Assembly: GCF_023278365.1 (NCBI RefSeq)
Contig: NZ_CP075338.1
Coordinates: forward strand, 62,001 to 126,000
Direction: 5' to 3'
Length of the DNA stretch: 64,000 bases
Source: Epilithonimonas zeae
Lineage (GTDB): Bacteria > Bacteroidota > Bacteroidia > Flavobacteriales > Weeksellaceae
Below, in pieces: positions 12,715 to 43,235 of the stretch; positions within the stretch are counted from its first letter, which is position 1, and the number at the start of each line of letters is the position of its first letter. The translations under genes and the position numbers were made by a program. The notes under the pieces are model-generated. The model saw only the letters and a list, made by a program, of their open reading frames with translations, searched no databases and was not told the origin of the DNA.

Positions 12715-13322
12715 ATTTTATATTCGTTATGATTTTAATTTTTGAAGACTATTTCGGGGAATTTGAAATTGATTTTCGGATTAAATTTAGATTTAAATCA
12801 ATTAAAAATGATATGATTTGTATACTTTAATAATAAATATTGTTTCTTTTTTAATGTATTTATATAAATGCTTATCATAATGTGAGATTACATGGTGATT
12901 ATGCTTTAAAATTTTCATTTTTAGAATATGCTTTTAAATCTATATTTCAACGTTACATAATCATTAACATAATGATAACATAATCATAATTAATTCAAAT
13001 TTAAATTATTCTGTTAGATAATAATTTCTAAAAATATTGTGAATTATAGAAGCTCTAGTATTGTTTTATTGTGTTATTTATTATATTAGTGTTGAAATAA
13101 CACTTAATTATTTTAATTAATATATGGAAGCAAAAAATTTACTTTTCCGATAATCCGAGATAGGATTAAACAAAACTAAAAATCAGTTCGAAATTTCTTT
13201 TTAACTGTTTTACGAAAATTTTTCATTCTATACAAAGATGCTATCCAAAACGGCATCCGGTCATTCTTATGCCTTATCTGAAAAAATAAAAATTTAAAAA
13301 CTATTGTAAAAATCTTTAAGCT
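12715..13322. other. Long AT-rich control region before GH30
   Basis: This 600-bp gap has no plausible gene. It contains a cluster of CATAAT/ATTATG elements at 12872-12989, including three head-to-tail units of about 12 bp at 12955-12989, and the AraR-type palindrome at 13085-13107. No strong TAnnTTTG box is seen. TATATGGA at 13121 keeps roughly the spacing used at the other operators but is a poor match. Confidence 0.6.
13085..13107. promoter_or_regulatory. AraR-type operator upstream of GH30
   Basis: The half-sites ATTAGTGT and ACACTTAA are separated by 7 bp. The right half is identical to the perfect palindrome at 43213-43235, and the inner part AGTGTT-N5-AACACT is exactly symmetric. It lies 216 bp before the GH30 start codon. 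Confidence 0.7.
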
Positions 13323-16046
13323 ATGAAAAAAACTATTTTAAAATCACTTGGCCAACTTGCCTTTATCGCGATGGTATTCCTAAGTTTTCTGGCAAATGCT
13401 CAAACACCGAAAGTCCGAATAGACAATACGCCACGGCAAAAAATTACTGGTTATGGTGGTTTCGTATGCAGTCCGCAGTTTGCCTATGATCATATGACGC
13501 CTGCAGAAATCGAAAAAATGTGGGGAACAAATAGTGAAGCCGGATACAATATTATGCGACTTTATATTCCCACAACCAGAGAGAATTGGAACTTGGCTCT
13601 CGCCACTGCACAAAAAGCAAAATCTCTAGGTCTGATTATTTTTGCAAGTCCGTGGTCGCCACCTGCAGAATGGAAAACCAACGGAAATGATGCTGGAACA
13701 TACAATGGTGTAGAAGGTTTTCTCAAACCTGAGCATTACGGAGATTTTGCAAATTACCTGAATGACTTTGTTATTTATCTAAGAAATAATGGTGTTGAGC
13801 TGGAAGGTATCTCTCTGCAAAATGAGCCAGATTATATAGTAGAATATACAGGATGCACTTGGACAACTACTCAAATGACCAATTTTCTGAAGAATTATTC
13901 AGATATTATTAGTTGTAAGATTATTGCGCCGGAAACTGTGGGATTGTCAAACAACTTTGCTAATGCACTTCTTGCCACAGATGTATTGCCGAAGTTTGAA
14001 ATCTACGCTGGACATCAATATGGAGGAATAGGTTCTGCATATAAAGGTTTCCTTAATACAAATAAAGAAATCTGGATGACAGAGTTTCTGATCAATTGGA
14101 ATTCCAATGGCGGCACAAGGAATTTTTCTTGGAACACAGATGCATTTGACTTTGCAAAAAGCATCAATGATGTTATTGTAGGCGGTGGAAATGCCTGGAT
14201 CCATTATGCTACAAAAAGATATTACGGAATGATGGGAGATGGGCTCTACGGAACGGTAGCTGGCGAAATCACCAAGCGAGGTCATATTCTCTCTCATTAT
14301 GCAAAATATACAACGGGTTACAAAAGATTGGATGCTATCTGGAGCGACCAAGGCGCAATGCAGGGTTCTGCTTTCATCAATGATTCTGGAGATAAAGTGA
14401 CATTGATGATTTTAAACTCATCGGCTAATGCCTATACACTGAAGGTGGATTTGCCTTTCTACACGACTTCAGCACAAAAAATTATGACCAATGAAACTTC
14501 TAATATGGTTTCCTCTAATCAGACTTTTACAGAAACCTTCCGTCCTACTATTCAGGTCAATCCTTCAAGTGTTATCACTTTTGTTTTTGATAAAAGTAAT
14601 ATCAGAGAAGTTTCCAATATGACGGGTCAGGATGTTAATTACTCTAAAATTGAAAGTCAATCTGTTACCAATCCTGCGTTCGGAACAACGTATCAACTAA
14701 GTGGTAAAACGGCAACTTTGTATAATTCTACACCGCTTATCAGCTCCAATATGACAGATGCTAATGGATATATAGCTTTAGATGACCGCTACAATAAATT
14801 GGTTTTTCACGTCAATAGTTATACAACGAGCAATCTTGCAACTTCATCTAATACAACTTTATATTATGTTGACAATGCAGGCGTTGTGAAATCTTATAAT
14901 TATGGAACAGTTAACTTGCCATCGTCTGGCTCGTCCAATTTCGATTTGACGTTTGATATCTCCAGGGCAGTTCTTACAACCGGCTGCAAAGGAATTATTG
15001 GACTTAGAAATGGTAATTTCAGTTCTGTATTGACATTCAATTTTGGCGATGTCTATTTTGCAATTTCAAATGAAAAAGCAATGAAGTTTGCCGGCGTTTA
15101 TTCAGATGGAGATAGCAATCTGATGGATGTTTATGAAAATACATATTACACGTCATTGGATTTTACCAGTGTAACAGGGATCAATACTTCAGCTAACTGG
15201 AAAAGTAAAATGGCTAATGCCAATAGTATATTTTATGTTAGTAGTGGAGCTGGATTCCGCAAAGATTCTAAAGCAAACAATGCAAATGTAGTTTCAGGAA
15301 CTGTTGCTGCATCATTGGAATTATCCGATCAGGGCGGTGACTTTAATGCACCTTTCGCTTTCACTGCGACAGCCGCATCGTATACAAAAACATTGAATGG
15401 ATATGCCGTGATTGTATTACCATTTGAAGCTAATGTTCCGGTTGGTGTACAGGCTTACAATATGCTGCCTTTGTCATCAAAAGTTTTATGCACCAGTGTT
15501 CCGAATGGAAAAATTCCTGCTAATACACCAGTGTTGATTAATGGAAACGGAACGTTTACTTTCACAGGATCAGGATCTGTTTCTACACCAAAAGCGATTG
15601 TTTCTAATCAGTTCAATGCAGACTATAGCACGGTAAAAGCTTACACAGGAGGATATGTTCTCAAAACAGTTGGGGGAGTTACAGGATTCTATAAAATAAG
15701 CAGTGGAAGCGAGACTGTTCCGGCGTTTAGCGCTTATATTTCGGAAGAAAATGCTTATTCTGCTTCACTTCTGCCATTGGAGTTTGAAACACTTGCGGCT
15801 CAGGATATATCTGATTCCAAATTGCAGCTTTATCCAAATCCTGCTAAAAACGAGATTTTTGTTAATTGGAAATCGTCCGATGCAGCTTATTCGATTATTG
15901 ATGCTAAAGGAAGCCTAATCTCACATCAATCGAAACTTGTCAGTGGTAAAAATAGAATTGATATTTCTAAACTTACTTCCGGAGTATATTTTATTGAAAT
16001 ATACGAAGCAGGGAAAAGCATCAGAACGAAATTTATTAAACAATAA
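13323..16046 (+). CDS. GH30 family xylanase-like enzyme with T9SS sorting domain
   Basis: The 907-residue protein has a signal peptide ending near NAQT and a GH30 barrel plus side beta-domain at ~28-440. Glu168 in SLQNEPDY is the expected acid/base and Glu254 in WMTEFLI the nucleophile. Similarity to glucuronoxylan-type GH30 xylanases is suggested by the context. Residues ~440-825 are a long beta-rich region I cannot assign firmly; its second part (VIVLPFEANVPVGVQAY... ANTPVLI) resembles a repeat domain of Bacteroidetes surface proteins. The last ~75 residues (LQLYPNPAKNEIFV to TKFIKQ) are a type A T9SS sorting domain, so the enzyme should be secreted or surface-attached. The gene is monocistronic, between an AraR-type operator and a terminator. 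Confidence 0.88.
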   Translation: MKKTILKSLGQLAFIAMVFLSFLANAQTPKVRIDNTPRQKITGYGGFVCSPQFAYDHMTPAEIEKMWGTNSEAGYNIMRLYIPTTRENWNLALATAQKAKSLGLIIFASPWSPPAEWKTNGNDAGTYNGVEGFLKPEHYGDFANYLNDFVIYLRNNGVELEGISLQNEPDYIVEYTGCTWTTTQMTNFLKNYSDIISCKIIAPETVGLSNNFANALLATDVLPKFEIYAGHQYGGIGSAYKGFLNTNKEIWMTEFLINWNSNGGTRNFSWNTDAFDFAKSINDVIVGGGNAWIHYATKRYYGMMGDGLYGTVAGEITKRGHILSHYAKYTTGYKRLDAIWSDQGAMQGSAFINDSGDKVTLMILNSSANAYTLKVDLPFYTTSAQKIMTNETSNMVSSNQTFTETFRPTIQVNPSSVITFVFDKSNIREVSNMTGQDVNYSKIESQSVTNPAFGTTYQLSGKTATLYNSTPLISSNMTDANGYIALDDRYNKLVFHVNSYTTSNLATSSNTTLYYVDNAGVVKSYNYGTVNLPSSGSSNFDLTFDISRAVLTTGCKGIIGLRNGNFSSVLTFNFGDVYFAISNEKAMKFAGVYSDGDSNLMDVYENTYYTSLDFTSVTGINTSANWKSKMANANSIFYVSSGAGFRKDSKANNANVVSGTVAASLELSDQGGDFNAPFAFTATAASYTKTLNGYAVIVLPFEANVPVGVQAYNMLPLSSKVLCTSVPNGKIPANTPVLINGNGTFTFTGSGSVSTPKAIVSNQFNADYSTVKAYTGGYVLKTVGGVTGFYKISSGSETVPAFSAYISEENAYSASLLPLEFETLAAQDISDSKLQLYPNPAKNEIFVNWKSSDAAYSIIDAKGSLISHQSKLVSGKNRIDISKLTSGVYFIEIYEAGKSIRTKFIKQ

Positions 16047-16070
16047 TTATCATTCAAATCAAATTTTATT

Positions 16071-16102
16071 AAAAGTCACCCTTTTATTATGGTGACTTTT
16101 TT
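16071..16102 (+). terminator. Rho-independent terminator after GH30
   Basis: A perfect 10-bp stem, AAAAGTCACC (16071-16080) with GGTGACTTTT (16091-16100), runs into T residues 25 bp after the GH30 stop. Confidence 0.9.
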
Positions 16103-16181
16103 AATTAATATAAGCTAAAAACCTATTTTTTCGAATAAAAATATAGGTCAGTAGCCAAGCTGTAATTATTATTATCTTAAA

Positions 16182-16204
16182 TTAAGTGTTGTTTATACAT
16201 TTAT
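16182..16204. promoter_or_regulatory. AraR-type operator upstream of GH3-GH51
   Basis: Half-sites TTAAGTGT and ACATTTAT are separated by 7 bp. Both halves are identical to those of the site before araB (21038-21060). The operator ends 15 bp before the TATATTTG box. Confidence 0.75.
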
Positions 16205-16287: not shown

Positions 16288-18915
16288 ATGAAAAGAATCC
16301 TGTTTTCCTTATCCATTTTCATTTGCGCAATCTCATCCGCACAGAATTTCAAATATCCGTTCCAGAACCCCAAACTTCCAGTCGAGCAGAGAATTGAAAA
16401 TCTTCTCGGATTATTAACAGTTGATGAAAAAATCGGAATGATGATGGATAATTCGAAAGCCGTTCCGAGATTGGATATTCCCGGTTACGGCTGGTGGAAC
16501 GAGGCGCTTCACGGCGTTGCAAGAGCAGGAACAGCCACGGTTTTTCCTCAAGCCATCGGAATGGCAGCAACCTGGGACGTTCCGGAACATCTCAAAACTT
16601 TTGAAATGATTTCCGATGAAGCCAGAGCAAAATACAATAGATCTTTTGATGAATCTCAAAAAACCGGACGTTACGAAGGACTTACATTCTGGACGCCGAA
16701 CATCAATATTTTCCGTGATCCTAGATGGGGAAGAGGTCAGGAAACCTATGGTGAGGATCCTTATTTGACTTCTGTTTTAGGTGTTGCAGCCGTAAAAGGT
16801 TTGCAGGGAAATGACCCGAAATATTTTAAAACGCACGCCTGCGCCAAACATTTCGCCGTTCACAGCGGTCCGGAATGGAATCGTCATTCCTACAACGCTG
16901 AAGTTTCCAAAAGAGATTTGTATGAAACCTACCTTCCGGCTTTTAAAGCATTGGTTTTGGAAGGAAATGTAAGGGAAGTGATGTGTGCTTACAATGCTTT
17001 TGACGGTCAACCGTGTTGCGCCAACAATACTTTATTGACAGAAATTCTTCGCGGAAAATGGAACTACGACGGAATGGTCGTTTCCGATTGCTGGGCTTTG
17101 GCAGATTTCTATCAGAAACAGTACCACGGAACACATCCTGACGAAAAAACTACTGCCGCAGACGCCCTGAAACATTCTACAGATTTAGAGTGTGGTGACA
17201 CGTATAATAATTTAAATAAATCTCTCGCAAGCGGATTAATTACCGAAAAAGACCTCGATATTTCGATGCGAAGAATTCTGAAAGGTTGGTTTGAATTGGG
17301 AATGCTCGATCCGAAATCTTCCGTTCACTGGAACTCCATTCCATATTCTGTTGTGGATTCTGAAGAGCATAAAAAGCAGGCTTTAAAAATGGCTCAGAAA
17401 TCTATTGTTCTGATGAAAAACGAGAAGAACGTTTTGCCTTTAAATAAAAACATCAAAAAAATTGCTGTCGTTGGTCCAAATGCGGATGACGGACTGATGC
17501 AGCTGGGAAATTATAACGGAACACCTTCTTCCATCGTAACGATTTTGGACGGTATCAAAACCAAATTTCCAAACGCAGAAATCATTTATGAAAAAGGAAC
17601 TGAAGTCGCCGATCCGTCATCCAGAACTTCGCTTTACCAAAACTTTTTAAGCCAGAAAAATGGTGAAAAAGGAATGAAAGTAGCGTTTTTCAACAATAAT
17701 GAATTCAAAGGAACTCCCGCTAATGTTTCTGTAAATAAAAGCGGAATCAATTACAACAGTTTTGGCGGAACTCAGCTCGCCCCGAATGTCGGAAGAGAAA
17801 ATACATCGGCTATTATTTCCGGCGTTTTCAAAAGCCCTTACACGGGCGATGTGATTCTTTCGCCATCAACTTCCGATGTTTACACACTTTTTGTTGACGG
17901 TAAAGAAATCGCGACCAGAAAAGGTCCAGACGCAAGACATCCTTCAGAATTTCCTGTGAAAATGGAGAAAGGAAAAGAATATCTGATAGAATTACGTCAC
18001 ACCCAAAAAGGAAAATATGTAAGCATCACATTTGACGTGTACAGAAAAGATCCTGTTAATTTCGCTGCGGTTAGGGAAAAAGTGAAAGATGCGGACGTTA
18101 TTGTCTTCGCAGGCGGACTTTCTCCAAGTCTGGAAGGCGAAGAAATGATGGTGAATGCAGAAGGTTTCAAAGATGGCGATAAAACGTCTATCGACCTTCC
18201 GAAAGTTCAGCGTGAATTGCTGGCTGAACTAAGAAAAACAGGAAAACCTGTCGTTTTTGTCCTTTGTACGGGAAGTTCATTGGGTTTAGCGCAAGATGAA
18301 AAAAATTATGATGCGTTGATTAGCGCTTGGTACGGTGGACAATCCGGCGGAACTGCCGTTGCAGACGTTTTGGCGGGAGATTACAATCCATCAGGAAGAT
18401 TACCGATTACATTCTATAAAAATCTGGAACAGCTGGACAATAATTTATCTAAAACCAGCAAACACCAGGGTTTTGAAAACTACGATATGGTCGGAAGAAC
18501 CTACCGTTATATGACGGAAAAGCCATTATACGCTTTCGGTCACGGGTTGAGTTATTCAAAATTTGTTTACGGAAATGCTAAGCTGGCCAAAAGCACCATT
18601 AATTCTAATGAAAACTTGACGATTACAGTTCCTGTTACCAATAATTCGGAAAGAGACGGTGAAGAAGTGATTGAAGTTTATGTGAAAAGAAATAATGATC
18701 CTGCGGCACCAGTAAAGACTTTGAGAGCTTTTGAAAGGGTTTTAATTAAATCTAAGGAAACAAAAAATATTCAATTAACGATTTCTAAAGATTCATTTAC
18801 ATTTTATGATGAAAAAGTAGATGATTTGGCTCCGAAAGCAGGAGATTACACGATTTTCTACGGCGGAACTTCCGATGAATCAGGTTTGAAAAGTCTTCAA
18901 TTACAGGTTAAATAA
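16288..18915 (+). CDS. GH3 beta-xylosidase-type glycosidase with PA14 insert
   Basis: The 875-residue product has a signal peptide ending near SSAQ. The GH3 N-terminal barrel (~30-345) contains the nucleophile Asp267 in MVVSDCWAL. The C-terminal alpha/beta domain starts near KSIVLMKNEKNVLPL and is interrupted at ~455-590 by a PA14-like insert. A fibronectin III-like end follows (EVIEVYVK...GDYTIFYGG). PA14-containing GH3 enzymes of this type in Bacteroidetes are usually beta-xylosidases or beta-glucosidases; the neighbouring GH51 favours xylosidase or arabinosidase activity. It is the first gene of an operon controlled by an AraR-type operator. Confidence 0.92.
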   Translation: MKRILFSLSIFICAISSAQNFKYPFQNPKLPVEQRIENLLGLLTVDEKIGMMMDNSKAVPRLDIPGYGWWNEALHGVARAGTATVFPQAIGMAATWDVPEHLKTFEMISDEARAKYNRSFDESQKTGRYEGLTFWTPNINIFRDPRWGRGQETYGEDPYLTSVLGVAAVKGLQGNDPKYFKTHACAKHFAVHSGPEWNRHSYNAEVSKRDLYETYLPAFKALVLEGNVREVMCAYNAFDGQPCCANNTLLTEILRGKWNYDGMVVSDCWALADFYQKQYHGTHPDEKTTAADALKHSTDLECGDTYNNLNKSLASGLITEKDLDISMRRILKGWFELGMLDPKSSVHWNSIPYSVVDSEEHKKQALKMAQKSIVLMKNEKNVLPLNKNIKKIAVVGPNADDGLMQLGNYNGTPSSIVTILDGIKTKFPNAEIIYEKGTEVADPSSRTSLYQNFLSQKNGEKGMKVAFFNNNEFKGTPANVSVNKSGINYNSFGGTQLAPNVGRENTSAIISGVFKSPYTGDVILSPSTSDVYTLFVDGKEIATRKGPDARHPSEFPVKMEKGKEYLIELRHTQKGKYVSITFDVYRKDPVNFAAVREKVKDADVIVFAGGLSPSLEGEEMMVNAEGFKDGDKTSIDLPKVQRELLAELRKTGKPVVFVLCTGSSLGLAQDEKNYDALISAWYGGQSGGTAVADVLAGDYNPSGRLPITFYKNLEQLDNNLSKTSKHQGFENYDMVGRTYRYMTEKPLYAFGHGLSYSKFVYGNAKLAKSTINSNENLTITVPVTNNSERDGEEVIEVYVKRNNDPAAPVKTLRAFERVLIKSKETKNIQLTISKDSFTFYDEKVDDLAPKAGDYTIFYGGTSDESGLKSLQLQVK

Positions 18916-18991: not shown

Positions 18992-19020
18992 AAATGTATT
19001 CGTCTACAAAATACCAATCA

Positions 19021-21003
19021 ATGAAAACAAAAACCAAAATATTCACAGCCGCTATTTCGCTAAGTGTTGCATTTTTTTCAGCCCAAAATAAAACTATCCA
19101 AACCCATTTCCTCGATTTGGACGGAACTTCTACCAACATCAAAATCCAGCCCACGATGTACGGGATTTTCTTCGAGGACATCAATTTTGCGGCAGACGGC
19201 GGATTATATGCTGAACTGATTAAAAACCGCAGCTTCGAGTTCGACGAACCTTTGACAGGCTGGAAACAACCCAATACAAAAACGCTTTCTCCAAACTTGG
19301 ATTCCGGTTTTTTGACAATTATAACCGACAAATCCAAATCCAATAAAAACTACGCAAGAATCACGGTTTGGAATGATAAAAATTATATTCTTGAGAACGA
19401 AGGTTTCAGAGGAATTGGTTTGCATCAAGGTGAGAAATATGACTTAAGTTTCAATCTGGAAAATGTGTCAGGAAATATTTCTGCCATCAATACAAGTCTG
19501 ATTGATGAAAACGGAACAGTGATTTCCTCAGTATCTACCATCATCAAAGGTGGAGGCTGGCAAAAATACAATGCTGTTTTTGTACCTTCCAGAACCGTTG
19601 AAAAAGCAAAGCTTCAAATCACTTTTACCGGAAAAGGTGTTGTGAATATGGATATGATTTCACTGTTTCCTCAAGACACCTGGAAAGGCAGAAAAGGCGG
19701 TTTAAGAAAGGATTTGGTTCAAAAGTTATATGATTTACAGCCTGGATTTTTACGTTTTCCGGGTGGCTGCATTGTCGAAGGAAGAACTTTGGCAGAGCGA
19801 TATCAATGGAAAAAAACAATTGGTAAAGTGGAAGACCGCGAAAATCTTATCAATAAATGGAACAACGGATTTGCCCACCGTCTGACACCAGATTATTGGC
19901 AGTCTTTCGGACTTGGCTTTTTTGAATATTTCCAATTGGCGGAGGATTTAGGCGCAGAACCACTTCCGATTCTCAGCTGCGGAATGGCTTGCCAATTTAA
20001 CACAGCTGAACTTGTAAAAATGGAAGATTTAGACCCTTACATTCAGGATGCTTTGGATTTGATTGAATTTGCAAACGGCGATTCCAATACAAAATGGGGA
20101 AAAATCCGTACAGAAATGGGACATCCGAAACCTTTTAATATGAAATTTATAGGTGTTGGAAACGAGCAGTGGGGAGCGGATTATATCGAACGCTACAAAG
20201 TTTTTGAAAAAGCAATTCACGCCAAATATCCCGATATCAAAATCATTTCCGGAAGCGGACCGTCTCCCGATGGCGAATTTTTCGATTACGGCTGGAAAGA
20301 GCTTAAAAAACTGAATGCTCAGATTGTGGACGAACATTACTACAATTCTCCGGAATGGTTCTTAAAAAATGCAGATCGATACGATAAATACGACCGAAGA
20401 GGACCAAAAGTTTTTGCCGGAGAATATGCCGCGCAATCGGTTGGCGTTGTAAAACCTGACAATAAAAACAATTGGCTGACCGCACTTTCAGAGGCCGCTT
20501 TTATGACCGGACTAGAACGCAACGCAGATGTCGTGACAATGACTTCCTACGCACCGCTTTTCGCCCACGCAGACGGTTGGCAATGGACGCCGGATTTAAT
20601 TTGGTTCAATAATTTAAAATCTTATGCCACTCCGAATTATTATGTTCAGAAATTATTCTCCAACAACAAAGGAACAGATTTAATTAAAATCTCAGAAAAC
20701 GGAAAACCGTTGAAAGGGGAGAATAATCTCTATGCATCGGCAGTTCGTGACCTTAAAAAAGAAGAAATCATCATTAAAATTGTTAATGCTAATCCTCAGG
20801 AAACTTCAGTTGAAATTAATCCGAAAAATAGTAAAACGGGCAATCAATTAACCAAAATTGTACTGACTTCTGCAGGACTTTCCGATGAAAATAATTTCCA
20901 ATCAGAAACCATTACACCAAAAGAGGAAACGCAGGCCATTAAAAAAGGAAAGATTTCTGTTGAAATTCCGGCAAATTCTTTAGTGATTTTGAAAATAAAA
21001 TAG
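19021..21003 (+). CDS. GH51 alpha-L-arabinofuranosidase
   Basis: I start at ATG 19021 because it begins the signal peptide (MKTKTKIFTAAISLSVAFFSAQ); the in-frame ATG at 18994 would put nine polar residues in front. The 660-residue protein has an N-terminal region including a carbohydrate-binding-like insert (~60-210), then the barrel with Glu382 in GNEQWG (acid/base) and Glu468 in FAGEYAA (nucleophile). A C-terminal beta-sandwich ends the protein. It removes terminal alpha-L-arabinofuranosyl groups from arabinoxylan or arabinan and supplies L-arabinose to the araBDA genes. The signal peptide places it outside the cytoplasm. Confidence 0.94.
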   Translation: MKTKTKIFTAAISLSVAFFSAQNKTIQTHFLDLDGTSTNIKIQPTMYGIFFEDINFAADGGLYAELIKNRSFEFDEPLTGWKQPNTKTLSPNLDSGFLTIITDKSKSNKNYARITVWNDKNYILENEGFRGIGLHQGEKYDLSFNLENVSGNISAINTSLIDENGTVISSVSTIIKGGGWQKYNAVFVPSRTVEKAKLQITFTGKGVVNMDMISLFPQDTWKGRKGGLRKDLVQKLYDLQPGFLRFPGGCIVEGRTLAERYQWKKTIGKVEDRENLINKWNNGFAHRLTPDYWQSFGLGFFEYFQLAEDLGAEPLPILSCGMACQFNTAELVKMEDLDPYIQDALDLIEFANGDSNTKWGKIRTEMGHPKPFNMKFIGVGNEQWGADYIERYKVFEKAIHAKYPDIKIISGSGPSPDGEFFDYGWKELKKLNAQIVDEHYYNSPEWFLKNADRYDKYDRRGPKVFAGEYAAQSVGVVKPDNKNNWLTALSEAAFMTGLERNADVVTMTSYAPLFAHADGWQWTPDLIWFNNLKSYATPNYYVQKLFSNNKGTDLIKISENGKPLKGENNLYASAVRDLKKEEIIIKIVNANPQETSVEINPKNSKTGNQLTKIVLTSAGLSDENNFQSETITPKEETQAIKKGKISVEIPANSLVILKIK

Positions 21004-21037: not shown

Positions 21038-21060
21038 TTAAGTGTAAATATTACATTTAT
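21038..21060. promoter_or_regulatory. AraR-type operator upstream of araBDA
   Basis: Half-sites TTAAGTGT and ACATTTAT are separated by 7 bp, with nine of eleven arm positions pairing symmetrically. It ends 15 bp before TATATTTG, the same spacing as at 16182. It is placed to control the whole arabinose catabolic operon. Confidence 0.8.
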
Positions 21061-21242: not shown

Positions 21243-22940
21243 ATGAAAAAGTACGTTATCGGCTTAGACTACGGAACAGACTCTGTTCGTGCCGTTTTGA
21301 TTGATACGGAAAATGGGGCAGAACTGGCAACTTCCGTAAGCTATTACCAAAGATGGAAAGAAGGAAAATTCTGCAAGCCGGAAGAAAATCAATTTCGTCA
21401 GCATCCGCTCGACCATATCGAAGGGTTGGAAAAAACCATTTCAACTGTTGTGAAAGAAAGTGGCGTTGCGCCGGAAAATATCTTCAGCATTTGTATTGAT
21501 ACGACAGGTTCGTCACCGCTTCCTGTGAATAAGGATGGAATTGCCTTGTCACTTTTGCCTGAATTTTCAGAAAATCCCAACGCAATGATGGTGTTATGGA
21601 AAGACCATACATCCATCAACGAAGCTGAAGAAATCAACCATCTGGTAAGAAACTGGGGCGGCGAAGATTATACAAAATTTGAAGGCGGAATCTATTCTTC
21701 CGAATGGTTTTGGGCAAAAATTCTTCACATCAACAGAGAAGATGAAGCCGTAAAAAACGTGGCTTATAGCTGGATGGAACATTGCGATTACCTTACCTTT
21801 TTACTTTCCGATAATCAGGATTTAGCAACATTTAAAAGAAGTCGTTGTGCAGCGGGTCACAAAGCAATGTGGCACGAATCGTGGGATGGACTTCCTTCCA
21901 AAGAATTTCTCGGTCAGCTGGATTCTTCACTGGCAGAACTTCGTGATAGGCTGTACGATAAAACCTATACTTCCGATGAAGTTGCCGGAAATCTGAATGA
22001 AGAATGGGCAACAAAATTAGGCTTGACGGCCAATACGGTAATTGCTGTCGGAACTTTCGATGCTCATTCCGGAGCGGTTGGTGCAAAAGTGGAGGAAAAT
22101 ACGCTGATCAGAATTATGGGAACGTCAACTTGCGATATTATGGTGGCTCCCAACGAAATCATTGGCGACAAAACAGTTAAAGGAATCTGCGGACAGGTCG
22201 ATGGTTCCGTGATTCCGGGATTGATGGGATTAGAAGCGGGGCAATCTGCATTTGGTGATGTTTTGGCGTGGTACAAAGATATTCTGACTTGGCCGACACA
22301 CCATATTGTGATGAATTCCAATGTCATTGACGAAAATCAAAAACAGTTGCTGAAAGAAGAAATAGAAAACAATCTTATTCGCAATCTCACTTTGGAAGCG
22401 GAAAAAATTCCACTTTCGGAGGTGGTTCCGGTTGCCTTGGATTGGATTAACGGACGAAGAACACCAGATGCCAATCAGGAACTGAAAATGGCGATCAGCA
22501 ACCTTTCCTTGGGGACAAAAGCACCGCATATTTTCAAAGCTTTGGTAAATGCGATTTGCTTTGGAGCCAAAAAAATCGTCGACCGTTTCGAAGAAGAAGG
22601 CGTAAAAATCGAAAAAGTAATCGGAATTGGTGGCGTTGCCAGAAAATCACCGTTCATAATGCAGACTTTGGCCAATGTTCTTAATATGCCGATTGTAGTG
22701 GCAGCTTCAGACCAGGCTCCGGCTTTGGGCGCAGCTATTTATGCGGCTGTTGCAGCGGGAATTTACCCGACTGTTCAGGAAGCGAGCCAGAAAATGGGTT
22801 CCGATTTCGAAGCAGAATATTTCCCACAAGCAGAAAAGGTAGAAAAATATGCAGAATTTATGAAACAATATCAGATTCTCGCAGATTTCACAGAAAATAA
22901 TATCAAATCAAAGAAAAAGTTGATAGCTGAAAGTTTATAG
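21243..22940 (+). CDS. araB: Ribulokinase
   Basis: This 565-residue FGGY-family kinase matches the typical length of AraB. The N-terminal phosphate motif is GLDYGTDSVRAVLID; the C-terminal half has GIGGVARKSPFIMQ and ADQAPALGAAIYAA. It phosphorylates L-ribulose to L-ribulose-5-phosphate in the cytoplasm. It is the first gene of the araB-araD-araA-galM-SSS transporter cluster, with an AraR-type operator about 180 bp upstream. The D-ribulokinase FGGY group is an alternative, but adjacent araD and araA make AraB clear. Confidence 0.96.
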   Translation: MKKYVIGLDYGTDSVRAVLIDTENGAELATSVSYYQRWKEGKFCKPEENQFRQHPLDHIEGLEKTISTVVKESGVAPENIFSICIDTTGSSPLPVNKDGIALSLLPEFSENPNAMMVLWKDHTSINEAEEINHLVRNWGGEDYTKFEGGIYSSEWFWAKILHINREDEAVKNVAYSWMEHCDYLTFLLSDNQDLATFKRSRCAAGHKAMWHESWDGLPSKEFLGQLDSSLAELRDRLYDKTYTSDEVAGNLNEEWATKLGLTANTVIAVGTFDAHSGAVGAKVEENTLIRIMGTSTCDIMVAPNEIIGDKTVKGICGQVDGSVIPGLMGLEAGQSAFGDVLAWYKDILTWPTHHIVMNSNVIDENQKQLLKEEIENNLIRNLTLEAEKIPLSEVVPVALDWINGRRTPDANQELKMAISNLSLGTKAPHIFKALVNAICFGAKKIVDRFEEEGVKIEKVIGIGGVARKSPFIMQTLANVLNMPIVVAASDQAPALGAAIYAAVAAGIYPTVQEASQKMGSDFEAEYFPQAEKVEKYAEFMKQYQILADFTENNIKSKKKLIAESL

Positions 22941-23347: not shown

Positions 23348-23412
23348 CGCAATTGAAAAATAAATATTTGATTCTTAAATCAATTAATATTTCAATCATT
23401 AATAAAATAAAA

Positions 23413-24111
23413 ATGAGCATCTATAAAGAATTAAAACGAGAATGTTACGAAGCCAATATGCAACTCGATGCATTAAAGCTGGTCGTTTACACATTCGGAA
23501 ACGTAAGCGCTGTCGACCGTGACAAAGGAATCTTTGCCATCAAGCCGAGCGGTGTTCCTTACGAATTATTGAAACCGGAAGACATCGTAATTTTAGATTA
23601 CGATGCCAATGTGGTGGAAGGAAATTTAAGACCATCTTCCGACACCAAAACCCACGCTTATCTTTATAAAAACTGGGAAAACATCGGTGGGATTTCACAC
23701 ACGCACGCTATCTATTCCGTAGCTTGGGCACAGTCGCAACTGGACATCCCGATTTTCGGAACGACCCACGCAGACCATCTGACAACAGATATTCCTTGTG
23801 CACCGCCGATGCACGATGATTTAATCGAGGGCAATTACGAATACAACACCGGAATCCAGATTCTGGATTGCTTTAAAGAAAAGAACTTGTCTTACGAAGA
23901 AGTAGAAATGGTGCTCATCGGAAATCACGGACCGTTCACTTGGGGAAAAAATGCAGACAAAGCGGTTTACAACAGCAAAGTCCTCGAAACCATCGCCGAG
24001 ATGGCTTATCTCACAAGACAAATCAATCCTAATGTTCCCCGTTTGAAAGATTCATTAATCAAAAAACATTACGAAAGAAAACACGGCAAAAATGCCTATT
24101 ACGGACAATAA
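23413..24111 (+). CDS. araD: L-ribulose-5-phosphate 4-epimerase
   Basis: I choose ATG 23413, which gives 232 residues, matching the usual AraD length; an upstream start at 23353 would add 20 AT-rich residues derived from intergenic sequence. It is a class II aldolase/adducin-fold protein with zinc ligand motifs THAIYS and TTHADHL and a GNHGPFTWG block. It converts L-ribulose-5-phosphate to D-xylulose-5-phosphate, linking arabinose catabolism to the pentose phosphate pathway. UlaF/SgbE epimerases are close relatives, but neighbours araB and araA settle the assignment. Confidence 0.95.
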   Translation: MSIYKELKRECYEANMQLDALKLVVYTFGNVSAVDRDKGIFAIKPSGVPYELLKPEDIVILDYDANVVEGNLRPSSDTKTHAYLYKNWENIGGISHTHAIYSVAWAQSQLDIPIFGTTHADHLTTDIPCAPPMHDDLIEGNYEYNTGIQILDCFKEKNLSYEEVEMVLIGNHGPFTWGKNADKAVYNSKVLETIAEMAYLTRQINPNVPRLKDSLIKKHYERKHGKNAYYGQ

Positions 24112-24270: not shown

Positions 24271-25767
24271 ATGTTAACACCTCTCAATACGAAAGAAATC
24301 TGGTTCATCACCGGAAGCCAGCATTTATACGGTCCTGAAACATTAGCGCAGGTTGCGGAACATTCAGCGAAAATCGTAGAAGCGTTCAATGCTTCGTCTC
24401 AAATTCCTGTTAAAGTGGTTTTGAAGCCAACCGTAAAAACAACAGAAGAAATTTTTGAAACACTTACCGCTGCCAACTTTGCAAAAGACTGCATCGGAAT
24501 CGTAACCTGGATGCACACGTTTTCACCCGCAAAAATGTGGATTCGTGGACTGACCGCTTTACAAAAGCCAATGTTGCATCTTCACACGCAGTTCAACCAG
24601 GATATTCCTTGGTCTACAATGGATATGGACTTTATGAACCTGAATCAGGCTGCGCACGGCGACCGTGAATTCGGATTTATGGTAAGCCGTCTTCGCAAAA
24701 ACAGAAAAGTAGTTGTAGGACATTGGGCTGAAGAAAGAGTTCAGAAACAGATTGGAGAATGGAGTAGAGTTGCCGCAGGTTGGGATGATTGGCAAGGTGC
24801 GAAGTTCGCCCGTTTTGGTGATAATATGAGATTTGTAGCGGTTACGGATGGTGATAAAGTGGAAGCGGAAACCAAATTTGGATTTTCAGTAAACACTTGG
24901 GGAATCGGAGATTTGGTGAGCGTTGTCAATTCAATTGGTGATGGTGAAATCAAAACCTTAATTGAAGAATATGAAGCTTCATACAAAATGGCAGAATCTC
25001 TTCTTTCCGGAGGTTCAAACAGAAAATCTCTGGAAGTTGCCGCAAGAATCGAATTAGGTTTGGAAAAATTCCTGAAAGATGGAAATTTCAAAGGTTTTTC
25101 CGATACTTTCGAAGACCTTCACGGCTTGGAACAATTACCTGGAATTGCCGTTCAGAGATTGATGGAAAAAGGTTATGGATTTGCCGGAGAAGGCGACTGG
25201 AAAACTGCCGCTTTGGTTCGTGCGATGAAAACAATGGGACAAGGTCTTGAAGGTGGAAATGCCTTTATGGAAGATTATACTTATCATTTAAATCCTTCAA
25301 ATCCTTCAATTCTAGGTTCACATATGTTGGAAGTTGACCCTGTTTTGGCGATTGACAAACCTTCTTGTGAAATTCATCCATTGGGAATTGGCGGAAAAGC
25401 TGACCCGGTTCGTCTGGTTTTCAATTCGAGAGGAAATATCGATTCTTTAAATGCCGCTTTGATGGATTTCGGAAATCATTTCAGACTGTTAATCAACAAA
25501 ACAAAAGCGTTGGAAATTACCGAAGAATTGCCAAAACTTCCGGTTGCGAGAGTCCTTTGGAAGCCGCTTCCTGACCTGTACACGGCAGCTGAAGCGTGGA
25601 TTTTGGCAGGTGGAGCGCATCACACGTGTTACAGTGAGAACATCAGCGTAGAACAATTGGAAGATTTTGCAGAGATTGCAGGTATCGAATCGCTTGTTAT
25701 TGATGAAGATACGAAAATCCGTGATTTTAAGAACACACTTCGCTGGAATGAAATATATTATCGTTAA
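24271..25767 (+). CDS. araA: L-arabinose isomerase
   Basis: The 498-residue product has the length and motifs of AraA. Likely metal ligands are the Glu residues in FAGEGDWKT and FMEDYTYHL and the His residues in [10 protein letters not shown] and [13 protein letters not shown]. It interconverts L-arabinose and L-ribulose in the cytoplasm with a divalent metal. It is the third gene of the arabinose operon; galM follows after 20 bp. Confidence 0.97.
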
Positions 25768-25787: not shown

Positions 25788-26948
25788 ATGAGAAAAACAA
25801 GTATCAACCTGATAATTCTTTTTGCCGTTTTATGTATTTTCGGGTGCAATAAAAAAGAAAATCAATCAAAAACTCAACCGGAAACAATGGAAAACATACA
25901 GGTTTCAGATTACGGAGTCACGTCAAAAGGCGATTCCATCAAAAAATATACTTTAACCAACAAAAACGGGATGAAGCTGGAAGTCATTAACTTCGGCGGA
26001 ATTATCACTTCACTTACCGCTCCCGACAAGAACGGAAAATACGAAGATGTCGTTTTAGGATTTACCAAGCCTGAAGATTATTTCAACGGAAATCCATATT
26101 ATTTCGGGGCATTGATTGGCCGTTACGGAAACAGAATTGCCAATGCCAAATTTACTTTGGAAGGCAAATCATATGACATCGACAAAAACGACGGGCCAAA
26201 CAGTCTTCACGGCGGAAAAGAAGGATTCCACACCAAATTCTGGAATATTGAACCAGTGAAAGATGCAAAATTCCCGACTTTGAAACTGACTTACACCAGC
26301 GCTGACGGTGAAGAAGGTTATCCGGGAAAATTAACGACAACCGTTCTGTATACTTTGACAGATGATAATGCTTTGGAAATTTCTTACGAAGCGGAAACCG
26401 ATAAACCGACTGTGGTGAATTTGACTCAGCATTCGTATTTCAATCTTTCAGGGAATTTCTCAAAAACCATTCTTGACCACGAATTGCAGATTAATGCGGA
26501 TAAATTTACACCAGTTAATGAAACTCTAATTCCTACAGGTGAGCAAAAAGCGGTGAAGGGAAGTGTATTCGATTTCACAGCTTCAAAAGCAATTGGAAAA
26601 GATATCAATGCAGATGACGACCAACTGAAAAAAGGAAAAGGCTACGACCACAACTGGATTCTGAACGGAAGCGGATTGAGAAGCATTGCCAAAGTTTATC
26701 ATCCTGAATCAGGAAGAGTAATGGAAGTTTTGACCGATGAACCGGGCGTTCAGTTCTATTCCGGAAACTTTTTGGATGGAAAATTTGATACAAAGACTGG
26801 CGGAAAAAATGAATTCAGAACAGGCTTTTGTTTAGAAACACAACATTTTCCGGATTCTCCAAACCAGGCTTCTTTCCCTTCTACAGAACTGAAGCCGGGA
26901 CAAAAATACCAGTCGAAAACAATTTACAAATTCTCAGTTAAAAAATAA
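25788..26948 (+). CDS. galM: Aldose 1-epimerase (mutarotase), lipoprotein
   Basis: The 386-residue protein starts with a lipoprotein signal (lipobox IFGC, Cys at ~20), so it should be anchored in the periplasm or outer membrane. The GalM fold shows its catalytic residues: the His in NSLHGGKEG, the His in LTQHSYFNL, and the C-terminal Glu in FCLETQHFPD. It speeds interconversion of alpha and beta anomers of sugars released outside the cytoplasm, such as L-arabinose or galactose, before uptake. The sodium/sugar symporter gene begins 3 bp later, matching a role just before transport. Confidence 0.93.
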   Translation: MRKTSINLIILFAVLCIFGCNKKENQSKTQPETMENIQVSDYGVTSKGDSIKKYTLTNKNGMKLEVINFGGIITSLTAPDKNGKYEDVVLGFTKPEDYFNGNPYYFGALIGRYGNRIANAKFTLEGKSYDIDKNDGPNSLHGGKEGFHTKFWNIEPVKDAKFPTLKLTYTSADGEEGYPGKLTTTVLYTLTDDNALEISYEAETDKPTVVNLTQHSYFNLSGNFSKTILDHELQINADKFTPVNETLIPTGEQKAVKGSVFDFTASKAIGKDINADDDQLKKGKGYDHNWILNGSGLRSIAKVYHPESGRVMEVLTDEPGVQFYSGNFLDGKFDTKTGGKNEFRTGFCLETQHFPDSPNQASFPSTELKPGQKYQSKTIYKFSVKK

Positions 26949-29393: not shown

Positions 29394-29395
29394 CT

Positions 29396-31308: not shown

Positions 31309-31995
31309 TTAAATCTTAAACATAAACCCTTCCGCAATTTTCTTATTGTATTTTTCTTCATCGAAAGTGTAAAGAAAAGACCCTTTTTTAGACGAGCTCA
31401 TATCTTTTCCTTCCGTTTTCACAAGAATATCCAGCGCATTGATTTTGCTGATGAAATTCCGCTTGTCATACTGTTCGTTGAAGATGGCTTCGTATAAAGT
31501 CTGCAGATCTTTCATCGTGAATTTTTCCGGCAGAAGCTCAAAACCGATAGGTCGTGTGGAAGCTCTTCTTCTCAGCCTCAGAACGGCATCTTTCACCATT
31601 TCATTATGGTCGAAAATTAAGGTCGGAAAATCCTGTAGGTCAAACCATTTTGCGCTATATTTTTCATTGATCTGAATATTTTTTTCAATATTAATCAGTG
31701 CATAATACGAAATCGACATAATTCTCGCCGTCGGTTCGCGGTCGATTTGAGTATAGGAATTGAGCTGTTCAAGATAAATATTTTCCAGTCCGGTAAGTGT
31801 GTTCAGGACACGCTGTGCCGCTTCATCAGAGGTTTCCTCGTCCCCGATAAAACCACCCATTAATGACCATTCTCCCATTTTCGGTTCAAAATTCCTTTGT
31901 ACCAGAAGGATCTTGAGATTTTCACCATCGAACCCGAAAATAATGCAGTCAACAGCTACCAGATGTCGTGGAAAATGAGAATAGTCTTGTGTCAT
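31309..31995 (-). CDS. araR: AraR-type (NrtR/Nudix family) arabinose transcriptional regulator
   Basis: The 228-residue protein has an N-terminal Nudix domain (~8-145) and a C-terminal winged helix (~150-228, LPEKFTMKDLQTLYEAIF...). The Nudix box region GGFIGDEETSDEAAQRVLNTL keeps the glycines, but the catalytic REUXEE is replaced by RVLNTL. It should therefore bind a ligand without hydrolysing it. This is the layout of Bacteroidetes AraR, a regulator derived from the NrtR family that senses L-arabinose. It lies between the arabinose operon and the GH127 cluster, and an operator-like palindrome (32056-32078) lies 60 bp upstream, suggesting autoregulation. An NAD-related NrtR is the alternative. 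Confidence 0.9.
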   Translation of the reverse strand: MTQDYSHFPRHLVAVDCIIFGFDGENLKILLVQRNFEPKMGEWSLMGGFIGDEETSDEAAQRVLNTLTGLENIYLEQLNSYTQIDREPTARIMSISYYALINIEKNIQINEKYSAKWFDLQDFPTLIFDHNEMVKDAVLRLRRRASTRPIGFELLPEKFTMKDLQTLYEAIFNEQYDKRNFISKINALDILVKTEGKDMSSSKKGSFLYTFDEEKYNKKIAEGFMFKI

Positions 31996-32055: not shown

Positions 32056-32078
32056 ATAAATGTATTTTATACACTTTA
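32056..32078. promoter_or_regulatory. AraR-type operator upstream of araR
   Basis: Half-sites ATAAATGT and ACACTTTA are spaced by 7 bp. Eight of eleven arm pairs are symmetric: the inner TGT/ACA, the adjoining AT pairs and the AA/TT step. It is the weakest of the five sites, but its position next to the regulator gene is what autoregulation predicts. Confidence 0.55.
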
Positions 32079-32538
32079 TTTTGCTTTTTATTTTTAAAAA
32101 ATCCAAATTTCATCATTTACCTTAATATTTTGGGAGCAATTAATAGCTCTGAAGCTTACATTTTATTCATCAAAAACATTAAAAACAGATGAACTCAATG
32201 TTAAAAATATGTTAAAATTAAGTTTCCTTTCATTTTAAATTTACTTGAAAACAAATGCCAAGGCTTAGTCTTAAAAATACGATAAGTTATTTATATAAAT
32301 TACCAACATCTATATTGGATATTCCGTATTCATTTTTTATACAAGCAATTTCTTTGTATGGTTCTGATTATCGTGATTTTTCATAATCTTAATTTTTATG
32401 ATAAGTCCTTGCTGTTTTCAGCTTTTTTCCAAGACTTTAAAATAGACTTTTTTTTGATTCCATCGGCTTATTCTGCAAAATTCTTTGTCATATTGATTCT
32501 TTCTTTTATTTTTAGAAATGTTGAATAGACATTTATTA

Positions 32539-34908
32539 ATGAATAAAAAATCGCTGATAGTATTTTTAGGTTTAGGCACGCTTGCTTTTGGGCAGCTGAG
32601 CAAAACGGTCAGTTATTTTCCGCTGAATAAGGTTGCTTTGTCTGAAAGTGTTTTCAGCAGGGCGATGCAGACGGATAAGAACTACATTATGTCGATGGAT
32701 GCCGACCGTTTACTGGCGCCCTATCTGAAAGAAGCAGGACTTAATCCTAAAAAAACAAATTATCCCAACTGGGAAAACACAGGATTGGATGGTCACATCG
32801 GCGGCCATTATATTTCAGCTTTGGCGTTGATGTACGCTTCTACAGGCGATGCCAAAGTAAAACAGCGCCTCGATTATATGATCGATGAGCTGGAGCGTTG
32901 CCAGAATCTTTCAGGAAACGGCTATATTTCCGGCATTCCGAATGGCAAAAAAATCTGGAAAGAAATCTCTGATGGCAATATCCGCGCATCGGCTTTCGGA
33001 TTGAATGACCGTTGGGTTCCTTTATATAATATTCACAAAATATATTCAGGTTTACGAGATGCCTATTGGTATGCAGACAGCGAAAAGGCAAAGAAAATGC
33101 TCATCAAGCTTACCGATTGGATGGCTGATGAAGTTTCCGGACTTTCCGATGAGCAGATTCAGGAGATGCTGAGAAGCGAACACGGAGGACTGAACGAGGT
33201 TTTTGCCGATGTTTACGACATTACCAAAAATAAAAAGTATCTCAAGTTGGCGCATCGTTTTTCGCATCTGGCCATTTTAAATCCATTACTGATTCACGAA
33301 GATAAGCTGACAGGAATTCACGCCAATACCCAGATCCCGAAAGTAATTGGTTTCAAAAGAATTGCCGATTTGGAACATAATAAGGAGTGGAACAGTGCGG
33401 CAGATTTTTTCTGGGCTAATGTTACTCAAAAGCGTTCAGCAATTATCGGTGGAAACAGCGTCAGCGAACATTTCAATCCAACTACTGATTTCAGCGGAAT
33501 GATTAAAAGCATTGAAGGTCCCGAAACCTGCAATACTTACAATATGCTGAAGCTGACCAAAGAACTTTTTGCCACAAACCAGAAGTCGTCTTATCTGGAT
33601 TATTACGAAAGGGCTTTATACAATCATATTCTTTCCACTCAAAATCCTGAAAAAGGTGGTTTTGTGTATTTCACACCGATGCGTCCCGGTCATTACAGGG
33701 TGTATTCTCAGCCGGAAACCAGTTTCTGGTGTTGCGTTGGTTCGGGGATGGAAAATCACGCGAAGTATGGCGAAATGATTTATGCGCATTCGGATAATGA
33801 TTTGTATGTCAATTTGTTTATTCCGTCTGTCTTAAAATGGTCTGAAAAGAAATTGGTGCTGAGACAGGAAAATAATTTTCCTCAGACCCCTTCCACAAAA
33901 TTAATTTTTGATCTTACCCCAAAGTCCGAAATCAATTTAAAATTAAGAGTTCCGGAATGGACAAATGCTTCACAGATAAGCGTTTCCATCAATTCAAAAA
34001 ATACCAATATTCCTGTCGATTCCGAAGGTTATATCAATATCAGCAGAAAATGGAAAAAAGGCGATGTCATCGAAATGAAAATGCCGATGCATCTTTCTGC
34101 GGAACAGCTTCCTGACAATTCAGATTATTATGCATTCAGATATGGACCCATCGTTTTGGCAGCCAAATATGGCAAAGAAAATCAGCAGGGATTGTTTGCC
34201 GATGACAGCCGTGGCGGACATATTGCACACGGACCACAGATTCCTCTGAATGATATTCCGACGATTTTAGGATCTTCGACAACTGTTTTGGATCATTTAA
34301 AGCCTGTTAGTGAAAAAGATTTAACATTTAAAATTAGCGGTCTTTATCCTCAGAATAAATTCAGCAACGGGTTGGAACTTGTTCCGTTTTATCAGGTTCA
34401 GGAAGAGCGTTACATCATCTATTTTCCTCAGGCAACTCAGGATAAAATCGAAATCATTCAGCAGAAAAAAGCTCAGGAAGAAGAAGCTGTCCGAAAACTA
34501 GACAATATCACAACAGACAAAATTCAGTTAGGCGAGCAACAGCCGGAGTCCGACCACTTTTTTGACAGCAAAGATGCTTACGATGGCTATATGGAAGACC
34601 GTCATTTCCGCGATGCTAAAGGCTGGTTCAGTTATCAAATGAGAAACAAGGATAAAAATGCAAAATATCTTTACCTTCTGTATTTCGATGCCAATAACAA
34701 TCGTACATTGAATGCCGAAATCAACGGAATCAAAGTATTTTCAAAAGATTTTGAAGGAAAAATGGGAAGTTCACCACAAATATTGTTAATCCCAGTTCCC
34801 GAGTCGGAAAAGAATAAAGAAACGCTCACTGTAAAATTTATTTCAGGCGAAAAATCTCTGACTCCAAAAATTATTGAAGTGAGATTACTGAACGAATTAC
34901 CAAAATAA
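32539..34908 (+). CDS. GH127/GH146-type beta-L-arabinofuranosidase (DUF1680)
   Basis: I start at ATG 32539, which begins the signal peptide MNKKSLIVFLGLGTLAFGQ; ATG 32518 would add seven residues. The 789-residue protein has the (alpha/alpha)6 fold of DUF1680. Its putative metal/nucleophile residues match the GH127 pattern: Glu329 and Cys331 in ETCNTYN, and Cys398-Cys399 in FWCCVGSG. An extra beta-domain covers ~640-789. These zinc- and cysteine-dependent enzymes release beta-L-arabinofuranose from plant glycans. The esterase gene follows 8 bp later. Confidence 0.9.
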   Translation: MNKKSLIVFLGLGTLAFGQLSKTVSYFPLNKVALSESVFSRAMQTDKNYIMSMDADRLLAPYLKEAGLNPKKTNYPNWENTGLDGHIGGHYISALALMYASTGDAKVKQRLDYMIDELERCQNLSGNGYISGIPNGKKIWKEISDGNIRASAFGLNDRWVPLYNIHKIYSGLRDAYWYADSEKAKKMLIKLTDWMADEVSGLSDEQIQEMLRSEHGGLNEVFADVYDITKNKKYLKLAHRFSHLAILNPLLIHEDKLTGIHANTQIPKVIGFKRIADLEHNKEWNSAADFFWANVTQKRSAIIGGNSVSEHFNPTTDFSGMIKSIEGPETCNTYNMLKLTKELFATNQKSSYLDYYERALYNHILSTQNPEKGGFVYFTPMRPGHYRVYSQPETSFWCCVGSGMENHAKYGEMIYAHSDNDLYVNLFIPSVLKWSEKKLVLRQENNFPQTPSTKLIFDLTPKSEINLKLRVPEWTNASQISVSINSKNTNIPVDSEGYINISRKWKKGDVIEMKMPMHLSAEQLPDNSDYYAFRYGPIVLAAKYGKENQQGLFADDSRGGHIAHGPQIPLNDIPTILGSSTTVLDHLKPVSEKDLTFKISGLYPQNKFSNGLELVPFYQVQEERYIIYFPQATQDKIEIIQQKKAQEEEAVRKLDNITTDKIQLGEQQPESDHFFDSKDAYDGYMEDRHFRDAKGWFSYQMRNKDKNAKYLYLLYFDANNNRTLNAEINGIKVFSKDFEGKMGSSPQILLIPVPESEKNKETLTVKFISGEKSLTPKIIEVRLLNELPK

Positions 34909-39908: not shown

Positions 39909-39946
39909 AATCAGCTTTTAAGATTTCAAAAATAAAAATAAATATT

Positions 39947-40018
39947 TTTCTCGCAGATTTAGCGAATTAAGCAGATTTTATTTAAATAATCTGCGAAATC
40001 TGGAAAATCTGCGAGAAA
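39947..40018. repeat. Hairpin repeat TTTCTCGCAGATTT...AAATCTGCGAGAAA
   Basis: Perfect 14-bp inverted arms (39947-39960 and 40005-40018) enclose further AATCTGCG-like words. It occupies most of the gap between GH10 and the cytoplasmic GH43. A shorter relative precedes GH51 at 18957. Confidence 0.75.
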
Positions 40019-40058
40019 TTTAATTCAAAATCTAGTATCTAAAAATCTAAACTATAAA

Positions 40059-41033: not shown

Positions 41034-41035
41034 GA

Positions 41036-41086
41036 ACGGGCTTTAGCCCGTTTAAAAAAAGTGATAACCATTTGGCTTTAGCCAAA
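41036..41086. repeat. GGGCTTTAGCCC / TTTGGCTTTAGCCAAA palindromes
   Basis: ACGGGCTTTAGCCCGT (41036-41051) and TTTGGCTTTAGCCAAA (41071-41086) follow directly after the GH43 stop codon. They belong to the family at 23235-23347. Confidence 0.8.
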
Positions 41087-41112
41087 ACTTAAATAATTTT
41101 AAAAATTTAAGA

Positions 41113-43143: not shown

Positions 43144-43196
43144 TCAACTTGTTTAAATTTAAACAAATAACTTTCTAAATCTTTTGAGAGAGGAAG

Positions 43197-43227
43197 TTGT
43201 TTGTTTTACAAATTAAGTGTAAATTTA
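43197..43227 (+). promoter_or_regulatory. Putative promoter overlapping the AraR operator before tal
   Basis: TTG (43197-43199) is followed after 20 bp by TAAATTTA (43220-43227), one base from TAnnTTTG. The -7 box lies in the spacer of the perfect palindrome, so a bound regulator would block it. Confidence 0.45.
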
Positions 43228-43235
43228 ACACTTAA
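43213..43235. promoter_or_regulatory. Perfect AraR-type operator upstream of transaldolase-transketolase
   Basis: TTAAGTGT (43213-43220) and ACACTTAA (43228-43235) are perfect inverted repeats with a 7-bp spacer. It lies 21 bp before the transaldolase start codon. As the best copy it defines the consensus used for the other four sites. Confidence 0.85.

Follow-up and report, generated by a model that had tools for sequence, protein, structure and literature searches.

In the published description of AraR from Bacteroides thetaiotaomicron (BtAraR), the DNAs used for gel shifts and co-crystals carry GTGT-N7-ACAC cores, the GTGT being defined by the protein contacts, and the BT0365 sequence reads AAAGTGT-N7-ACACTTA (PMC4666351). 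The regulon as described in the main text of that paper includes no named pentose phosphate gene, and the word transketolase occurs there zero times (PMC4666351). In Clostridium acetobutylicum, an AraR is described as controlling araK-araE2-araA2-tal-tkt1-epi, a set which includes a transaldolase and a transketolase (PMC3507653). Here, we analysed a stretch of 64,000 nucleotides from Epilithonimonas zeae (contig NZ_CP075338.1, positions 62,001 to 126,000; the window), in which 23-bp palindromes stand before genes for the use of pentoses. These palindromes are, very probably, the operators of an AraR encoded in the same window (31309-31995), which would switch the pentose genes together and be released by arabinose. 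Two samples were used for comparison: 23 genomes of the genus (G numbers, with the own genome's coordinates given as C1), in which AraR hits were judged by identity, and named araR loci, the best 80 of at least 574 confirmed relatives, 18 of them from Chryseobacterium or Epilithonimonas and 62 from others, mostly Flavobacteriia by name. Four of the 80 loci (L143, L152, L153 and L159) are the same records as the genus genomes G005, G007 and G003.

The original prediction had placed five palindromes at 13085, 16182, 21038, 32056 and 43213. These coordinates are exact, and the list of open reading frames (ORFs) confirms that all five are intergenic. The consensus proposed with them, TTAAGTGT-N7-ACACTTAA, is perfect only at 43213, the five sites showing 2, 2, 2, 3 and 0 mismatches, respectively. 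With up to 3 mismatches allowed, it gave 7 matches in the window against a mean of 0.39 after shuffling, and none of 100 shuffles reached 7; the two extra matches, at 31303 and 56604, fall outside the better consensus at up to 1 mismatch. The former lies at the end of a DUF294 ORF and was taken as chance. The better description of the site set is WWAARTGT-N7-ACAYTTWW, which at up to 1 mismatch retrieves exactly six sites in the whole window, the earlier five and one at 32514-32536. When the two half-sites were set 3-6 or 8-12 nucleotides apart, at the same tolerance, no match was obtained in the window.

The predicted operator at 13085-13107 matches the consensus about 215 bp upstream of a gene for a xylanase resembling glycoside hydrolase (GH) family 30, and the same site was seen in G001, G005 and G022. 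The consensus matches at 16182-16204 and 21038-21060 precede GH3-GH51 and araB-araD-araA-galM-SSS (SSS, sodium:solute symporter), respectively, and the predicted operator at 43213-43235, a perfect match, ends 21 bp ahead of the ORF of a second (pentose) transaldolase copy, tal2. A single site, 32056, had been described as just upstream of both araR and GH127. This holds for araR, which lies 60 bp from the predicted operator at 32056-32078, a consensus match also found in relatives, and which is probably autoregulated; GH127 is some 440-460 bp away and has a site of its own, the gap between the two genes holding one site near each. This sixth predicted operator, at 32514-32536, was absent from the original prediction, matches the consensus and occurs at the same place in several relatives. 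It stands before the probable GH127 start at 32539, the second in-frame ATG, which we preferred to the listed ORF start at 32518 because a signal-peptide-like stretch, recognised by eye, follows it. The five-site regulon was thus borne out in its sites and proved too narrow, with a sixth site in the window and further boxes elsewhere.

The presence of a Nudix-derived regulator of AraR type in the window was confirmed by Pfam, with scores of 47.7 bits for NUDIX, 78.0 bits for NrtR_WHD and 42.2 bits for AraR_C, all over the respective cut-off. The protein encoded at 31309-31995 on the minus strand has as its best solved relative BtAraR (5bs6, 232 bits; the next structure scored 85 bits) and is 49.5% identical to it, compared to 34.6-40.6% for the four other NrtR_WHD proteins of the own genome. 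Judged from its sequence, it is an NrtR-family AraR, with Nudix and winged-helix domains, of the Bacteroidota branch and orthologous to BtAraR. In place of REUXEEXGU, part of the Nudix signature (PMC4666351), it presents RVLNTLTGL, in which three catalytic glutamates are replaced (by eye), so that the signature is impaired. The residues R34, R86 and H131, which hydrogen-bond arabinose in BtAraR (PMC4666351), are present in the window protein and kept in all 80 araR loci. In the same way, the recognition-helix DNA contacts K179, R180 and N181 show no change in any of the 80 loci and are present in the window protein.

The motif follows this regulator. AraR was found in 12 of the 23 genus genomes, at 73-100% identity, the next best full-length matches reaching at most 42%, and araA was found in exactly the same 12. 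Exact matches to WAARTGT-N7-ACAYTTW averaged 5.3 (range 3-8) in the 12 genomes with AraR against 1.4 (0-4) in the other 11 (Mann-Whitney p = 4.5e-5; in this and all further p-values, related genomes are treated as independent, which overstates their independence). The reversed control gave 1.25 and 1.0, respectively (p = 0.52). The scan of relatives which the original prediction had proposed thus showed tight matches tracking the presence of AraR. Among the 80 named loci, AARTGT-N7-ACAYTT occurred 166 times, in 76 loci, and the other spacings between 3 and 12 gave 0-2 occurrences each. A single one of these occurrences was flagged as lying within an ORF, close to where GH127 begins, and the sites recur beside araR, araB, GH127 and sodium symporters. 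Exact matches at unrelated genes were not found in the own genome, where the five to WWAARTGT-N7-ACAYTTWW all lie in the pentose region, C1:34909-105235. The two outside matches to the earlier consensus at up to 2 mismatches, C1:1715358 and C1:2313050, were set aside, being inside ORFs, for a TonB receptor and an RloB-like gene. Conservation upstream of orthologues was also observed: in AraR-bearing relatives the sites precede the same genes, i.e. araB, GH3, araR, GH127 and tal2, though GH30 has moved.

Promoters of Bacteroidota follow a consensus with -33 and -7 elements. A -7-like box, TATATTTG, begins 34 bp downstream of the first base of the AGTGT core at 16182 and equally at 21038; before both GH3 and araB the distance from site start to this box is the same, and the site covers the expected -33 region. 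In the 80 loci, TAnnTTTG boxes are concentrated 12, 34-35 and 44-48 nucleotides from the site start, with 2-20 boxes per peak offset against about 0.2 expected, and therefore many sites overlap a -7 or a -33 element. Such an overlap would fit a promoter-blocking repressor released by arabinose, as for BtAraR. By analogy with BtAraR, the source of all that is assumed here on binding, effector, allosteric step and sign of regulation, AraR would be a dimer, each subunit combining a winged helix with a Nudix-like sensor. As long as L-arabinose is absent, it would occupy AARTGT-N7-ACAYTT sites overlapping or adjoining the promoter and keep its targets off, namely GH3-GH51, araBDA-galM-SSS, araR, GH127, the second transaldolase with the split transketolase and, in this lineage, GH30. 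Upon binding of L-arabinose in the Nudix pocket, the winged helices would rotate and the DNA would be released, and there would be a joint rise of the hydrolases, of uptake and catabolism, and of the non-oxidative pentose phosphate step.

AraR could also bind these boxes with another sign or effector, activating at some promoters or answering to another pentose or a phosphorylated intermediate. Some TAnnTTTG boxes lie 44-57 bp after the site start, which places the site upstream of the promoter, and the araR site is of that kind, standing upstream of its promoter-like box and not on it; neither tal2 nor GH127 showed a clear -7 box. The pocket residue V92 is replaced by I or T in all 80 loci, and D-xylose at 0.5 mM or more is described as partly disturbing BtAraR binding (PMC4666351). 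Nevertheless, the three arabinose hydrogen-bonding residues are retained throughout, and the araB and GH3 boxes sit where the -33 element is expected. We regard a different sign or effector as improbable, and retain repression released by L-arabinose.

The reach of the regulon into central metabolism depends on tal2 (43257-43910, plus strand; Pfam and NCBIfam), one of two transaldolase copies in the genome. The other, at C1:410811, is 84% identical and has no site. The tal2 product belongs to the small transaldolase, or fructose-6-phosphate aldolase/TalC, family, above the NCBIfam cut-off, and by family may be either a transaldolase or a fructose-6-phosphate aldolase. The box before tal2 is found in 11 of the 12 AraR-bearing genomes and in neither of the two AraR-less genomes which keep tal2 (Fisher p = 0.033). 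In these two, G011 and G016, the GH67-tal2 neighbourhood is retained, as judged by eye from the upstream sequence, and no site is present. Of the 22 listed loci of the housekeeping transaldolase, 16 were read, and none of these showed a site even with 3 mismatches allowed. Thus, tal2 seems to be a spare copy kept for growth on pentoses. In the named loci, a site lies within 255 bp of a transketolase ORF in six cases and within 149 bp of a transaldolase ORF in three, and the transketolase-transaldolase pair near the site in Flavobacterium pectinovorum (L199) was confirmed by Pfam. The AraR-linked transketolase of this species is a single full-length ORF, and that of the window, 43915-45995, is two adjacent ORFs. 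G005 possesses two araR loci, L096 (G005:C35) and L098 (G005:C3). In the larger one tal2 reads as two overlapping frames. In the compact locus tal2 is uninterrupted, araR is more divergent (73%) and another symporter is present; a site stands before both the intact and the interrupted tal2.

Outside the window, the gene of a XylR-like paralogue at C1:35254-35943, 58 kb upstream of araR, comes first in an operon which also encodes a xylulokinase, a xylose isomerase, SusC and SusD, the xylulokinase (xylB) scoring below its NCBIfam cut-off. The AraR-bearing genomes with xylR number 11, and in 10 of them an AraR-type box stands about 320-350 bp upstream of this gene. The two AraR-less genomes with a close orthologue, G011 and G016, lack it (p = 0.038). 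When G017 is counted as AraR-less the comparison becomes 10/11 vs 1/3 (p = 0.093), and with G008 among the AraR-less it is 10/11 vs 0/3 (p = 0.011), the xylR of G008 being divergent and therefore dropped. G017, 88% complete, presents the xylR box and no detected AraR, and its contig stops about 10 kb past xylR; the arabinose cluster may be missing there through an assembly gap. The association of the xylR box with AraR is thus suggestive only. The XylR-type copies of G008 (L084) and the second copy of G014 (L086) are 90% alike, 75-83% identical to the rest and preceded by different upstream sequence, and may form a separate subtype. Matches at 35474, inside xylR, and at 36350, inside xylB, were taken as chance.

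A different palindrome, GATAAGCTTATC, is found about 155-165 bp upstream of xylR in 12 of the 16 genus copies, with or without AraR (G011, G016 and G017 included), and a one-base variant of it stands before xylR in G000 and G022 (own genome C1:35094-35111, L067/L088). At up to 3 mismatches the own genome has six matches, of which the xylR one is the best (2 mismatches), and the reversed control has 0; none was found in the window. This palindrome is the better candidate operator for XylR itself. Additionally, a feruloyl-esterase-like gene at C1:57021, whose best NCBIfam name is below its cut-off, presents a semi-conserved AraR-type box, which recurs in 9 of 9 orthologues, each of them from a genome with AraR. 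A box at the phosphoenolpyruvate carboxylase gene (C1:376627) was rejected as not AraR-linked: similar boxes occur in the AraR-less G006 and G020, and among AraR-bearing members of the 23 genomes the box was confined to G000 and G022, which are near twins (the G005 locus is incomplete).

That another NrtR-family paralogue binds the boxes, above all the XylR-like protein, deserves mention considering that the own genome has five NrtR_WHD genes, that the box upstream of xylR also occurs in G017 where AraR was not found, and that one paralogue has a recognition helix similar to that of AraR, DRRNFRKK. This last protein is encoded at C1:3068768-3069424 (L074; the 3068k type). The distributions do not match, as judged by scores and extents: the 747k type is present in 21 of the 23 genomes, the 3068k type is limited to 3 of them, and the XylR type extends to the AraR-less G008, G011, G016 and G017, where the motif counts are 2, 0, 2 and 2. 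Moreover, the XylR type has the candidate palindrome of its own described above, and its recognition helix is without K179 and R180. We consider binding by such a paralogue very unlikely, and AraR remains the preferred regulator of the boxes.

Several further observations weigh against the AraR reading, or against its full extent. In the genome scan with the earlier consensus, loose matches (2-3 mismatches) were no commoner than in the reversed control, so that this consensus alone would not reveal the regulon genome-wide. At up to 3 mismatches the own genome gave 29 matches against 57 reversed, and at up to 2 mismatches the numbers were 41 against 55 in the 12 genomes with AraR; the corresponding values in the 11 AraR-less genomes were 7 and 49. 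Even WWAARTGT-N7-ACAYTTWW at up to 1 mismatch gave 20 matches in the own genome against 14 reversed. The AraR-less G010 has 4 exact short matches, and 4 of the 80 araR loci have no exact motif. G021 shows no visible box between araR and GH127 and none before xylR, G019 has AraR and no box before tal2, and there is no GH30 box in G003, G007 and G014. As to the protein, the DNA contacts K184 and R205 are called 'absolutely conserved' in the BtAraR paper (PMC4666351). Among the 80 loci, K184 is replaced by S in 46 and N in 30 and is still K in 4, while R205 is K in 79 and kept in one, and the window AraR has S at 184 and K at 205. The 2015 claim of absolute conservation fails for these loci, because the contacts have changed while the core operator is kept. 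A lysine occupies position 185 in all 80 loci, and K185 or backbone contacts may compensate.

The missing boxes lead to a narrower alternative, in which AraR controls the core set only (araB, GH3-GH51, araR, GH127 and tal2) and the GH30, xylR and feruloyl esterase boxes are decaying, due to chance or in other use. The GH30 site is present in just 4 of the 7 genomes, the window included, which show the region upstream of GH30; the second half-site of the esterase box is weak, reading ACAAA or ACAAT, in every one of the 9 orthologues; and the xylR box is far from its gene, its link to AraR hanging on the few AraR-less genomes behind the p-values of 0.038 and 0.093. On the other hand, all 9 orthologues have the esterase box at one position, although their flanking sequence is similar as well, and the xylR box is retained in 10 of 11 genomes. 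We hold this restriction to the core set to be possible, if rather doubtful. The widest version of the AraR reading puts all pentose use in Epilithonimonas under AraR as the top switch. AraR would repress, besides the arabinose genes, xylR-xylB-xylA-SusCD together with a transaldolase-transketolase duplicate reserved for pentoses, and would read its operator without two of the BtAraR contacts. This we advance tentatively, at somewhat below even chances. If true, arabinose would license the use of xylose and raise the pentose phosphate capacity, with the housekeeping transaldolase outside the switch.

The genes of the region, all on the plus strand except araR, were assigned by Pfam unless stated otherwise. 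The GH30-like xylanase (13323-16046) has a type IX secretion system sorting tail; its earlier label of GH30 is approximate, the protein scoring just under the Pfam GH30 cut-offs, and its best NCBIfam name, XynC, is far below its cut-off. It is followed by a GH3 glycoside hydrolase (16288-18915), a GH51-type alpha-L-arabinofuranosidase (18994-21003), the ribulokinase araB (21243-22940, also NCBIfam), an araD-type class II aldolase/epimerase (23353-24111), the L-arabinose isomerase araA (24271-25767), a galM-type aldose 1-epimerase (25788-26948) and a sodium:solute symporter (26952-28679, also NCBIfam), probably the arabinose transporter. Between the symporter and araR (28749-31306) lie an exonuclease-like gene and a DUF294/CBS nucleotidyltransferase gene, which tblastn did not show between symporter and araR in G009, G018 and G019. 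Beyond araR are the GH127 beta-L-arabinofuranosidase (32539-34908) and, after tal2, the N-terminal (43915-44760) and C-terminal (44988-45995) halves of the transketolase. A GH115 gene is located upstream, and the stretch from GH127 to tal2 includes SASA, MFS, GH10, GH43 and GH67 genes; near these six kinds of gene, the window showed no other site of the WWAARTGT-N7-ACAYTTWW type.

These results would extend the AraR regulon of Bacteroides and Prevotella to the Flavobacteriia with a testable operator, and would carry it into central carbon metabolism by way of a dedicated gene copy. They also offer a conserved operator with changed protein contacts, a case for structural explanation, and a simple prediction on the order in which arabinose and xylose are used on arabinoxylan. 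Our searches of open-licence papers listed no description of this AraR regulon in Flavobacteriia.

Compared to BtAraR (BT0354) as published, the window regulator shares the Nudix and winged-helix architecture and the arabinose-contact residues (PMC4666351, PMC3878776). The operator core AGTGT-N7-ACACT and its spacing are common to both, the window motif adding AT-rich flanks, and so are the linkage to araA, araB, araD, mutarotase and arabinosidase genes and a site before the ara operon. In contrast to BtAraR, the window regulator has other residues in place of K184 and R205, its gene is transcribed separately from araBDA with a site of its own, and the predicted targets include the second transaldolase, the split transketolase, GH127, GH3 and GH30, with an AraR-type box before xylR. 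The XylR-like paralogue corresponds to BtXylR (BT0791) in heading xylR-xylB-xylA, as in the Bacteroides xylRBAE arrangement described (PMC3878776, PMC4666351). It is about a third identical to the window AraR and has its own GATAAGCTTATC-type palindrome, and its XylR name rests on gene context. With the AraR described in C. acetobutylicum, the window regulator would share the role of an arabinose repressor reaching transaldolase and transketolase genes (PMC3507653). The regulator, the operator and the mechanism are thus already known from Bacteroides, and control of tal-tkt by arabinose has a known precedent in the Clostridium AraR. The latter, of the Bacillus/Clostridium type, belongs to another regulator family, of GntR/LacI type, and therefore the gene set shared with it would be convergent. 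What is newly described here is a Flavobacteriia member of the Bacteroidota AraR systems, with a wider target set.

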